Assembly: GCF_003441595.1 (NCBI RefSeq)
Contig: NZ_CP031848.1
Span: 1,922,001 to 1,986,000 of the forward strand
Length of the DNA: 64,000 nucleotides
Source of the DNA: Marinobacter sp. Arc7-DN-1
Lineage (GTDB): Bacteria > Pseudomonadota > Gammaproteobacteria > Pseudomonadales > Oleiphilaceae
Reading direction: 5' to 3'
In this document: positions 17,494 to 57,933 of the stretch, one piece after another
Numbering within the stretch: the stretch's first letter is position 1
Layout of the letters: each line of letters starts with the position of its first letter
The notes under the pieces: generated by a model
Databases searched by the model: none
What the model saw: only the letters and a program-made list of their open reading frames with translations
What the model was told of the DNA's origin: nothing
Program-made: the position numbers and the translations under genes

Positions 17494-18216
17494 ATGCCTG
17501 ATTTCATTGCCGAGTGGCTCAACCAGAACGACATTTTTACCGCCATGACCATCATGGAATACTGGGATGGTCTGGTGACCACCGTCCATCTGGTGTTCCT
17601 GTCATTGGTTATCGGCTTACTGATGGCGGTACCACTGGCCATTCTCAGAACGGTTCGCAACCCGTTCGTGTCCGGGCCAGTGTGGCTGTACACCTACCTG
17701 TTCCGCGGTACACCGCTGCTGATCCAGCTGTACATTATCTATTACGGCCTGGCCCAGATTGAGGGGATACAGGAGACTTTCTGGTGGGAGATCTTCCGGG
17801 AGCCGTTCTACCCGGCCCTGCTGGCATTCACACTGAACACCGCAGCCTACACCACGGAGATTATCCGGGGTGCAATTGTGTCAACACCCAATGGTGAAAT
17901 CGAGGCGGCCAAGGCCTATGGCATGAACTGGCTCATGCGTATGCGGCGTATCGTGCTGCCGAGTGCCGCGCGGCGTGCGGTTCAGGCATATTCCAATGAG
18001 GTGATTTTCATGCTGCACGCCAGTGCCATTGCCAGTGTGGTCACTATTGTCGATCTTACCGGGGCGGCGCGTAACATTTACTCGCGGTTTTATGCGCCGT
18101 TTGATGCGTTTATCTTTGTAGCGTTTTGCTACATGGCGCTGACCTTTATTCTGGTGTTTGCGTTTCGCAAACTTGAGAATCATCTGCTTCGACATCAGCG
18201 GCCGGTAAGCGGCTGA
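17494..18216 (+). CDS. aotM: Arginine ABC transporter permease (HisM type)
   Basis: 240 residues. The EAA loop is GEIEAAKAYGMNWLMRMRRI, and TYLFRGTPLLIQLYIIYYGL is the conserved HisM-type segment. It forms the second half of the permease dimer with AotQ. A structured 108-nt element follows within 30 bases of the stop and precedes astE. Confidence 0.9.
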   Translation: MPDFIAEWLNQNDIFTAMTIMEYWDGLVTTVHLVFLSLVIGLLMAVPLAILRTVRNPFVSGPVWLYTYLFRGTPLLIQLYIIYYGLAQIEGIQETFWWEIFREPFYPALLAFTLNTAAYTTEIIRGAIVSTPNGEIEAAKAYGMNWLMRMRRIVLPSAARRAVQAYSNEVIFMLHASAIASVVTIVDLTGAARNIYSRFYAPFDAFIFVAFCYMALTFILVFAFRKLENHLLRHQRPVSG

Positions 18217-18243
18217 GCCTGCTGATTTCGGCTTAAGTGCCCG

Positions 18244-18351
18244 GGCAGGCAGGGTGTTGCCTCCCGGGAGACGCTACGAGCACATCCATGTGCGCTTGTC
18301 TGAAGCCATCCATGGCTTCAGACACTCCCGGGAGGCAACACCCTGCCCGCC
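18244..18351. repeat. 108-nt three-stem cruciform element upstream of astE
   Basis: Outer arms 18244-18270 and 18325-18351 are 27-base inverted copies with a single difference, which is a G-U pair in minus-strand RNA. Inside are two hairpins, GCACAT-CC-ATGTGC (18280-18293) and GTCTGAAGCCAT-CC-ATGGCTTCAGAC (18298-18323). Both tips read CAT-CC-ATG. It ends 23 bases before the astE ATG. It looks like a dispersed structured repeat, with possible effects on the aot-astE message. Confidence 0.8.
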
Positions 18352-18374
18352 CCCAGACTTGGTTCGGGGATTCT

Positions 18375-19445
18375 ATGTCGGCAAAACACGACCTTTTCGG
18401 AACTCACTCTGACTGGCTTTTCCACACCCTCGACAATTCGAAAGCCTCACTTCCTGAAACCAAAACCTTCCTTCCCGACGGAACCCGCATCAGCCGCAAG
18501 GCCGTTGGGGTTCTGGACATTGTTCCGCCCGCTGGCCGGGGCAATCCGAATTCCGAGGCGATCATCGTTTCCGCGGGTGTGCATGGCAATGAAACCGCAC
18601 CTGTCGAGGTTCTGAACGAACTGGTTTCTGAGCTGATCAATGGCGAGTGGGAACTTGCCTGCCCGATCTTGTTGATTCTGGGTAATCCGCCGGCGATGGT
18701 GGCCGGAGAGCGGTTCACGGAGGTGAACCTGAACCGGTTATTCAATGGTGCACACGGACGGAGCGAGTACGACGGTCTGGCGGAGGCGGCGCGGGCGCAG
18801 TTGCTTGAGGAGGCTTGCCGGCAGTTTGCCATGGCAAATCCCCAGGCGCTTTATCACTACGATCTGCACACCGCCATTCGTCCCTCCCACCGGGAGCGGT
18901 TTGCCTTGTATCCTTTTGTGGCCGGGCGACAGGTTCCGGTCAGGCAGTGTGATTTTCTACTGGAGGCGGAGGTGGAGACGTTGCTGCTGCAACACAAGGC
19001 GGGCACGACGTTTTCGTCGTTTTCGGCGTCGCTGTTGAAGGCTGAGAGTTTTACCGTGGAACTGGGTAAGGTTCGGCCTTTCGGCCAGAATGATCCGGGG
19101 CGTTTCTCGGGCATCCGGGATGCCTTGCGGCGGCGGCTCCGGGGGCAACCTGCGCCTTCACCGCAGCCACCGTTTGACCAGTTGACGGTGTTTGAGGTGG
19201 TGCATGAAATCCTGAACACCGGAAAGAATTTCCGGTTTCACATCCCGGATGATGTTGCCAACTTCACCGAGTACCAACCCGGCACGGTGATCTGGGAGGA
19301 CGATGAAACCAGCTACCGGGTCGGGCATTCGCCGGAGGCCATTGTATTTCCCAACCCTGAGGTTCCTGTGGGCCAACGTGTCGGTTTGATGATCAGACCG
19401 AAAACGGGTTCGAAGTTGGGGTCAGATGAAAAAGGGGTCAGATGA
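18375..19445 (+). CDS. astE: Succinylglutamate desuccinylase
   Basis: 356 residues from ATG 18375. Zinc ligands are in SAGVHGNETAPVE (H70, E73) and YDLHTAIR (H165); ELGKVRPFGQND carries the catalytic glutamate (E229). All match AstE/AruE, the last step of the arginine succinyltransferase pathway (N-succinylglutamate to glutamate plus succinate). FPNPEVPVGQRVGLMIRPK is the normal C-terminus. The last ten residues (KLGSDEKGVR) and the stop are encoded by a GGGGTCAG palindrome, so the original stop has been replaced. The gene follows the aot transporter and is about 5 kb from the other ast genes. Confidence 0.92.
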   Translation: MSAKHDLFGTHSDWLFHTLDNSKASLPETKTFLPDGTRISRKAVGVLDIVPPAGRGNPNSEAIIVSAGVHGNETAPVEVLNELVSELINGEWELACPILLILGNPPAMVAGERFTEVNLNRLFNGAHGRSEYDGLAEAARAQLLEEACRQFAMANPQALYHYDLHTAIRPSHRERFALYPFVAGRQVPVRQCDFLLEAEVETLLLQHKAGTTFSSFSASLLKAESFTVELGKVRPFGQNDPGRFSGIRDALRRRLRGQPAPSPQPPFDQLTVFEVVHEILNTGKNFRFHIPDDVANFTEYQPGTVIWEDDETSYRVGHSPEAIVFPNPEVPVGQRVGLMIRPKTGSKLGSDEKGVR

Positions 19446-19483
19446 AAATTTCATCTGACCCCTTTTTCATCTGACCCCAACTT
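19413..19483. repeat. GGGGTCAG palindrome, copy 2 (71 nt)
   Basis: The 61-nt core (19418-19478) is identical in design to copy 1. Here the arms extend by AAGTT/AACTT, giving 35-base arms around a central A. It overlaps the 3' end of astE, encoding its last ten codons and stop, and lies 25 bases from the 3' end of the convergent RND gene. It would form a hairpin in either transcript. Confidence 0.9.
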
Positions 19484-19507
19484 TGACTTGACCCTGACTT
19501 CAGCGGG

Positions 19508-54091: not shown

Positions 54092-54948
54092 TACCCGGCG
54101 CAGCCCGCCTCGCCGGGCTTGCGCTCACCCTCCTGCTGCTTCCGGGTTGCAGCAGCCTCTTCTTTTATCCGGACCGGGTCACCTACATCACCCCGGACCG
54201 CCTGAACCTCGATTATGACGACATCTACATCGACACCGCAGACGGCGAAACCCTCCACGGCTGGTGGCTGCCCGCGGAAGCGCCCGAGAACGATGCCAAG
54301 GGCACCGTCTACTTCCTCCATGGCAACGCCCAGAACATCAGCAGCCACATCCTCAACGTTGCCTGGCTGCCCCAGGAAGGCTACAACGTCTTCACCATCG
54401 ACTACCGGGGCTATGGCAAATCCACCGGCGATCCCGACATCGAAGGCGCCCTCCACGACGTCGAAACCGGCCTGCGCTGGCTGGCCAAAAGACCCGACTT
54501 GGTGGGCGACCGACCAGTTTACATCCTCGGCCAAAGCCTCGGCGGCGCACTGGGCATAGCCCTCGCCGGCGAATGGACCCGGCGCGAGGAGCAACCCCGG
54601 CTGAACGGTGTGATCCTCGACGGCACGTTTTCAGGGTTCCGCGCAATCGCCCGGGAAAAACTCGACACATTCTGGCTCACCTGGCCGCTCCAGATTCCCC
54701 TGAGCTGGACCATCCCCGCGGATTTCGAAGGCATCGACCGGATCGCGAGCATCAGCCCGGTTCCGGTAATGATCATTCACAGTGTTCGGGATGGGATCAT
54801 TCCGTTTCATCATGGAGAGTCGCTTTATGAGGCCGCAGAGGAACCGAAAGAGTTTTTGCAGACGGATACGCCTCATGGGGCGACGTTTGTGATTCCGGGG
54901 TATAAGGAGGCCGTGCTGGAGTTTATTGCAGAACGCGGGGACAGGTGA
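54061..54948 (+). CDS. Alpha/beta-hydrolase lipoprotein
   Basis: 295 residues from ATG 54061, inside the end of the upstream gene. A lipobox LLPGC (Cys30) anchors it. The hydrolase core has the oxyanion strand YFLHGNAQN, the nucleophile GQSLGG (S159), and later acid and base in SVRDGIIPFHHGE and DTPHGATF. It resembles the BEM46/ABHD13-like family, with unknown lipid or ester substrates. The overlap with the DUF4105 gene suggests joint function at the envelope. Two GGGGTCAG palindromes follow its stop. Confidence 0.88.
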   Translation: MASRTPRLFLIPGAARLAGLALTLLLLPGCSSLFFYPDRVTYITPDRLNLDYDDIYIDTADGETLHGWWLPAEAPENDAKGTVYFLHGNAQNISSHILNVAWLPQEGYNVFTIDYRGYGKSTGDPDIEGALHDVETGLRWLAKRPDLVGDRPVYILGQSLGGALGIALAGEWTRREEQPRLNGVILDGTFSGFRAIAREKLDTFWLTWPLQIPLSWTIPADFEGIDRIASISPVPVMIIHSVRDGIIPFHHGESLYEAAEEPKEFLQTDTPHGATFVIPGYKEAVLEFIAERGDR

Positions 54949-54952
54949 AGAT

Positions 54953-54982
54953 GGGGTCAGAAGAAAGCGTTCTTCTGACCCC
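54953..54982. repeat. GGGGTCAG palindrome, copy 3 (30 nt)
   Basis: Arms GGGGTCAGAAGAA and TTCTTCTGACCCC around AGCG. Relative to the other copies, base 10 is A in place of T, and the right arm has the matching change, so pairing is kept. It lies 4 bases after the hydrolase stop. Confidence 0.85.
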
Positions 54983-55004
54983 GAATTTGGCAGCGGGTAA
55001 AGCT

Positions 55005-55034
55005 GGGGTCAGATGAACGCGTTCATCTGACCCC
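55005..55034. repeat. GGGGTCAG palindrome, copy 4 (30 nt)
   Basis: Arm GGGGTCAGATGAACG with its exact complement, a perfect 15+15 palindrome centred on ACGCGT. It is 22 bases from copy 3 and 17 bases from the pnp stop, so two units fill this convergent junction. Confidence 0.88.
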
Positions 55035-55051
55035 GTTTTCAGGGTTTGCTA

Positions 55052-57187: not shown

Positions 57188-57243
57188 TAATTCTTCATAT
57201 AGATTGGATAGATCGCGAAGACGGGGTCGAAAGCTTCGAATAA

Positions 57244-57273
57244 GGGGTCAGATGAAAGCTTTCATCTGACCCC
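57244..57273. repeat. GGGGTCAG palindrome, copy 5 (30 nt), in the pnp leader
   Basis: Arm GGGGTCAGATGAAAG with its exact complement, centred on AAGCTT. It is the only copy that lies inside an operon between same-strand genes; it sits 57 bases before the pnp start, where a 15-bp RNA stem could affect processing or translation. Confidence 0.88.
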
Positions 57274-57348
57274 GGGTTCATACCCCGAATTCACGCTGTT
57301 CTGCAGATGATGTGATGTGATCCGAAGGGCAACCCGTCTGAAAGCTAA

Positions 57349-57586: not shown

Positions 57587-57856
57587 TCAGCGACGCAGAC
57601 CCAGACGCTGGATAAGCTCCAGGTAACGGTCAGCGTTCTTGCGCTTGAGGTAGTCCAGCAGCTTACGGCGCTGGTTTACCATCCGGATCAGGCCACGGCG
57701 GGAATGGTGATCCTGCTTGTTGACCTTGAAGTGATCCTGCAGCTTGTTGATGTTGGCGCTCAGCAGTGCAACCTGAACTTCAGGAGAACCGGTATCGCCA
57801 TCACCTTGCTGAAAATCATTAACGATCTGTGCTTTCTCATTGGCAGAAAGTGCCAT
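57587..57856 (-). CDS. rpsO: 30S ribosomal protein S15
   Basis: 89 residues, exact family length. Conserved segments: [40 protein letters not shown] and [19 protein letters not shown]. It binds 16S rRNA early in 30S assembly. It lies between truB and pnp in the usual order. Confidence 0.97.
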
Positions 57857-57933
57857 AACTCACCTCATTGTTGCGATGCTTTCAGATCCGGCCGAACCGC
57901 GCATCTCTACAGCCCGGCTAAACAGCGTTGCGC

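Follow-up and report, generated by a model that had tools for sequence, protein, structure and literature searches.

The window analysed here is a 64,000-nucleotide stretch of the 4.30 Mb genome of Marinobacter sp. Arc7-DN-1 (single contig, hereafter the own genome), in which a 108-nt element lies between two plus-strand genes, 27 nt after the stop codon of an amino-acid ABC permease gene and 23 nt before the ATG of astE at 18375. An earlier note, made from the sequence, had placed the element between aotM and astE at that same distance of 23 bases; the position was correct, and the astE name was supported by TIGR03242 (308.7 bits, cut-off 305.65), whereas aotM is a plausible name for the upstream permease gene. 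The features of the locus are as follows.

17494–18216, plus strand: upstream gene, HisM/ArtM-like amino-acid ABC permease (aotM-like), scoring below equivalog cut-offs
18243–18270, minus strand: outer stem arm of 28 nt, 3' arm of the GGA-strand RNA (inverted-repeat search, folding, pair counts in 16 genomes)
18247 and 18348, minus strand: sole imperfection of the stem, A18247/C18348 on the plus strand and G·U on the minus strand
18271–18324, minus strand: conserved core, i.e. junction and both hairpins (37 own-genome copies aligned, 29 copies from other genomes by eye)
18280–18293, minus strand: hairpin P2, reading GCACAUGGAUGUGC, with hexaloop AUGGAU at 18284–18289 (minus-strand folding)
18297–18324, minus strand: hairpin P3, with tip C-AUGGAU-G at 18307–18314 (folding, pair counts)
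18325–18352, minus strand: outer stem arm of 28 nt, 5' arm of the GGA-strand RNA (inverted-repeat search, folding, pair counts)
18375–19445, plus strand: downstream gene astE, succinylglutamate desuccinylase (TIGR03242)

The element is real, with outer arms pairing across 28 bp, and the description given in the earlier note, of an outer stem whose one difference is a G·U pair on one strand and of two hairpins with CAT-CC-ATG tips, was accurate. Both tips have the sequence CATCCATG, at 18283–18290 and 18307–18314, and read C-ANGGAN-G on the minus strand, with P2 showing a hexaloop in the lowest-energy structure predicted for that strand. Folding energies were –91.6 kcal/mol for the plus strand and –96.5 kcal/mol for the minus strand (z –11.8 and –11.4, respectively), and none of 200 shuffles folded as well as the element. 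A script detector found one copy in the window and none in two 400-kb controls, one shuffled and the other reversed. The proposed three-way-junction layout was supported by compensatory changes in the stem, as detailed below. The element is also, as had been stated, not a simple terminator: no T-run follows either arm in the window or appears in the flank consensus of 294 copies, and an intrinsic terminator was ruled out by this lack of a U-tract after the stem.

About 105 copies of the element, this one included, are present in the Marinobacter chromosome, so that a solitary structure, which would have spoken against the earlier note, is not what the genome holds. Using blastn, we found 43 matches at 42 places, one of which is a match of the window element to its own opposite strand, and a covariance model gave 106 matches at E up to 0.01, of which 105 were examined and found to be all distinct (the match at 465955 is not among this set). 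Within the genus, blastn gave a match (E at most 1e-4) in 55 of 61 genomes, own included. A class-wide draw gave a match at E up to 1e-3 in 60 of 321 gammaproteobacterial genomes, own included, representing 54 of 243 genera, and in a phylum-wide draw, its class mix not given, 17 of 299 genomes matched, all 17 being from the same class or closer. Among the matches listed, named records having the core were mostly Marinobacter, with four others: Haliea alexandrii and MAGs labelled Rhodopirellula, Oleiphilaceae and Halomonas. When inspected by eye, 29 copies from other genomes had a recognisable core and each its own long stem. Plasmids, phages, viral contigs and E. coli genomes gave no match at the sensitivity used, one of these searches being made with an exact 29-base pattern. 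Rfam 15 had no gathering-score match at the element, including for CsrB (RF00018) and RsmZ (RF00166), and its three matches were all far below gathering scores. Literature searches at overview level found no published description of the repeat family, and we know of no description of a twin GGA-hairpin repeat. The Alcanivorax sRNAs considered as a candidate are, as described in PMC9788540, ordinary CsrB-like sRNAs that differ from the repeat. Elsewhere in the window, at 57800–57920 on the minus strand, Rfam identified an S15 leader (RF00114, 41.4 bits).

Copies have a common core and stems of changing sequence. The outer stem in 42 own-genome copies had a median length of 28 bp; of 1091 pairs in total, 1039 were Watson–Crick, 13 were G·T and the remaining 39 were neither. 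For the 38 copies whose stem reached 22 bp, the positions that could pair amounted to 96% between the two arms of one copy and to 47% between arms of different copies. A weak consensus runs through the arms, which are thus not wholly unrelated between copies, and no two of the 105 own-genome copies had an identical arm, the closest agreeing at 19 of 22 bases; for the outer 14 nt the best agreement was 13 of 14, with a mean of 43%. Covariation was determined for 37 of the 42 copies, omitting five with short, broken or shifted stems, and 96.5% of cells were paired, as compared to 69.6% upon shuffling, with 322 cells changed on both sides versus 90.8 (0 of 500 shuffles). At the aotM–astE site, examined in relatives having their best match there, the 28-bp stem is maintained through paired changes in 16 of 17 genomes, with 94.5% of cells paired versus 80.3% in shuffles and 85 cells changed on both sides versus 22 (0 of 500 shuffles); the 17th genome, L059, was omitted since an insertion breaks hairpin P2. 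The paired changes in relatives that the earlier note had named as a check are thus many. The A/C combination at 18247/18348 was present in 8 of these 16 genomes.

Between close species, the arms differed by paired as well as block changes, and some one-sided changes persist. Such block changes at orthologous sites, together with the rarity of G·U on either strand, would agree with a functionless element in which hairpin-templated arm-to-arm copying at replication keeps quasi-palindromes perfect. We regard that explanation as very unlikely, as it leaves both the strand bias and the conserved loops presented below unexplained, and as one-sided changes do persist (e.g. at G017 74513).

A variant of the element and a further repeat family were seen alongside the typical form. 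In 12 distinct copies, about 85 nt of extra structured sequence was found at the P2 tip, destroying the GGA loop (for example L012:1214, L059, L083:6499 and L086:1259), and L202, L208 and L209 resembled this long form by eye. Another long-stem family, with loop TTCTGGAAAAAGAACTCGCTGCGCTC... and no GGA tips, occurred at G017 107889 and G007 107231 (coordinates in joined 400-kb stretches).

When a transition hits one arm of the DNA, the resulting mismatch is read as A·C on one strand and as G·T on its complement, and pairs that are G·U on only one strand can be counted by strand. The detector gave 346 distinct copies; in those whose stem had at least 16 pairs (8476 pairs in total), 204 such pairs were found on the GGA strand versus 28 on the other, using a scoring that favoured the non-GGA strand (binomial p 3e-34, with kinship ignored and related copies included in the pooled counts). 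The ratio was 61:16 in the fixed inner 16 pairs, 178:23 in the Marinobacter group, 26:5 in other genomes and 29:6 in the own genome alone (p 1e-4). At the aotM–astE site it was 11:2, with 8 of the 11 being one pair common to related genomes, and with one copy per foreign genome it was 15:4 (p 0.02; 31 of 38 loci having a detector call). The Marinobacter group, here and in the analyses of gene context, flanks, promoter and loop spacing, comprises all loci outside L231–L279, and includes L124, L135, L136 and L179, which are named records of other genera or lineages, as well as, in the promoter/close-pair and spacing/SELEX analyses, L400–L403. Next to co-directional genes, the GGA strand was in the mRNA in 73 cases and not in the mRNA in 66 (p 0.61), and no replication-strand bias was found (53:53 to 52:54 depending on the choice of terminus, with dnaA at 2.665 Mb), so that a mutation bias set by the neighbours would be an unexpected cause of the G·U split. 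The strand whose fold is kept is the GGA strand, minus at this locus. The earlier suggestion that the element could act in RNA is supported by the compensatory changes and by this strand-specific G·U bias; counting against an RNA reading, G·T would also be tolerated in single-stranded DNA of the GGA strand. Since the constrained strand is antisense to the permease gene and astE, control of astE itself is without support here.

The tolerance of G·T is shared by an alternative that we judge unlikely, in which the repeat is selfish MITE- or REPIN-like DNA with a transposase recognising the single-strand hairpin. The about 105 scattered copies, mostly intergenic and orientation-neutral, would fit this explanation, as would the arrangement of close pairs, nearly always head-to-head in the same sense with the GGA strands pointing outward from a common centre (9 of 9 pairs in the own genome whose starts are at most 250 bp apart, and 47 of 47 pairs separated by less than 150 among the loci examined first, orthologues included); the exceptions, from later loci, were an array in G563 and a pair in G636, both with their copies on the same strand. 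In G309, furthermore, the element lies inside a MITE having inverted ends CAGCAATTCCC and 9-bp target duplications (L260–L263, by eye), and its copies there have near-identical stems. Speaking against selfish DNA are the lack of matches in the plasmids, phages and viral contigs at the sensitivity used, the absence of any identical arms in the own genome and of a replication-strand bias, and the maintenance in place across 16 genomes. No end is common to most Marinobacter copies, either, the commonest left-flank 7-mer being found in 38 of 294, and neither terminal repeats nor target duplications were seen in the Marinobacter flanks. The notion of a non-autonomous mobile element thus holds with regards to the dispersed repeat and the MITE in G309, for which the anticipated target duplications could be found, but not with regards to the ends, arms and flanks of the Marinobacter copies or a link to Y1 transposases. 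In relatives, one and the same gene junction could carry a copy in several species and, among the junctions listed, a collapsed copy or none in others; the sites without the element, examined for an inverted target duplication, may reflect either insertion or loss.

Established repeat families resemble the element in part. Like REP, BIME and REPIN sequences it is a short intergenic palindrome in many copies, often as inverted pairs, but unlike these its arms differ between copies and none lies beside a Y1 transposase gene. The own genome has two Y1_Tnp genes, and the script detector found no copy within 1.5 kb of either; the candidate of REP/REPIN with a RAYT, in which copies flank the RAYT gene, was rejected on that basis. 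Within 1.5 kb of the Y1_Tnp gene at 1131501 (L188) there are instead 11 copies of another repeat, GGGGTCAGATG, and a second palindromic family, GGGGTCAGATGAA...TTCATCTGACCCC, seen in the window at 6148–6242, 19410–19486, 54930–55047 and 57238–57281, is for that reason probably the cognate REP of this gene. In size and intergenic position the element also resembles MITEs, with the G309 element lying inside a real one, as well as ERIC/IRU-type palindromes. It differs from MITEs in Marinobacter by its stem sequence, which is not conserved, and by its flanks, in which terminal repeats or target duplications were not seen.

Further arrangements were noted around copies. In G563 (L421, 2788–4152), six copies form a 227-bp tandem array with a TGTAGGAGCGGCTTCAGCCGCG hairpin in each, resembling a multi-site sponge. 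A repeat GTAGGTCGGATTA...TAATCCGACCTAC is often inserted between head-to-head partners (L209, L216, L220, L221). In G127 (L269–L273), two types of outer sequence, variously combined, were seen by eye on either side of the copies, with the outermost parts pairing again past an unpaired middle.

With regards to gene context, 241 copies had genes called on both sides, of which 67 were in convergent and 35 in divergent gaps, compared with 48 and 203, respectively, in a background of 578 gaps of 100–600 bp that includes gaps with elements (odds ratio 8.1); two further copies overlap a called gene. Genes were here called with a simple script, leaving out copies with less than 700 bp of flank. This excess of convergent gaps, together with the very strong fold, would fit a REP-like stabiliser of mRNA 3' ends or a bidirectional end structure, for which a strong hairpin would be enough and CsrA not needed. 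Such a function seems improbable to us, since neither a conserved pair of ANGGAN loops nor a one-strand G·U preference regardless of gene direction would be expected from it, and no U-tract follows the stem.

The tip loops, by contrast with the stems, keep their sequence. Since the two free loop positions vary with the facing position unchanged, the tip is a loop and not a paired stem. As the script detector demands tip-like motifs, its tip counts (first N, spacing, SELEX) are biased, and fairer counts come from loop-agnostic repeats and from the model-found own-genome copies, that model having been built from tip-bearing copies. A loop-agnostic search of 1.85 Mb of Marinobacter DNA gave 63 inverted repeats with a stem of at least 18 and a loop of 40–70, some of them orthologues, and two CANGGANG on one strand were found in 55, one in 2 and none in 6. 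On the GGA strand of the 105 model-found copies, 97 had two CANGGANG and 8 had one, with none on the non-GGA strand in any of the 105. The spacing of the motifs was 22–25 nt in 377 of 377 two-motif copies.

According to a review (PMC7652899), an ANGGAN hexaloop is of CsrA/RsmA type, as in the RsmE structure, the CsrA SELEX consensus is RUACARGGAUGU, and CsrA bridges two sites 10–63 nt apart, best above 18, with very stable hairpins possibly being unfavourable. The element has the traits of a CsrA/RsmA-binding RNA in that it carries at least two sites with ANGGA in a short hairpin's loop, and in that the spacing falls within the bridgeable range and above 18 nt. Several findings counted against a CsrA reading: of 42 foreign copies, 31 have two full CANGGANG and 11 do not, the first N is mostly U, unlike the R in SELEX, and P3 has a long stem. 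The 12-nt SELEX consensus was found unchanged in 8 of 42 foreign copies and 5 of 351 others. The csrA gene is present in the own genome and in 56 of 60 element-bearing genomes versus 216 of the 261 remaining genomes (p 0.046); this association is weak, and genome size confounds it. Of the 4 element-bearing genomes without a csrA match, also counted against the reading, three are less than 90% complete and one (G256) is 98% complete.

The explanation that we favour, with moderate confidence, is that of a dispersed class-wide RNA-coding repeat, of which the GGA strand would be the functional product that binds CsrA and serves as a small stable decoy. In the RNA of that strand, the 28-bp stem would enclose a three-way junction from which two short hairpins project, each capped by ANGGAN with a closing C-G and positioned 22–25 nt apart, a geometry that could be bridged by one CsrA/RsmA dimer. 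The long stem may keep both hairpins presented and the fragment resistant to decay, and the unit is probably a decoy for a CsrA dimer. Transcription of the GGA strand, its binding of CsrA and the resulting titration are inferred from sequence features. The main gaps of the decoy explanation are the neutral orientation, no preference of copies relative to flanking genes being found, and the missing promoter, as no sigma-70-like enrichment over shuffles was seen upstream of the GGA strand using a generic matrix.

The element compares with CsrB/CsrC and RsmX/Y/Z, as the latter are described in the review above, in having GGA motifs in loops, several per RNA and at dimer-bridgeable spacing. It differs from them in having two sites per unit within a long closed stem, in occurring as about 105 dispersed copies instead of one or few genes, and in lacking an Rfam match and a promoter that could be found. 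Among 19 relatives, 13 of them Marinobacter, CsrB was found in none, and RsmZ in none above cut-off, with weak matches in 4. It is possible, although we propose it tentatively, that the repeats together make up, in many Gammaproteobacteria and in place of a single sRNA gene for a CsrA antagonist, a distributed CsrA sponge of up to about a hundred two-site decoys, kept by selection copy by copy, with titration set by repeat number and background transcription.

If the CsrA-decoy reading is true, an unannotated repeat family that occurs in about one in five of the gammaproteobacterial genomes sampled (60 of 321) would be an RNA directed at CsrA, and the Csr/Rsm network of non-model bacteria would have to be counted differently. 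The repeat is also a clean test bed for the evolution of a stem in place, with the core staying and the stem sequence turning over while pairing is kept.
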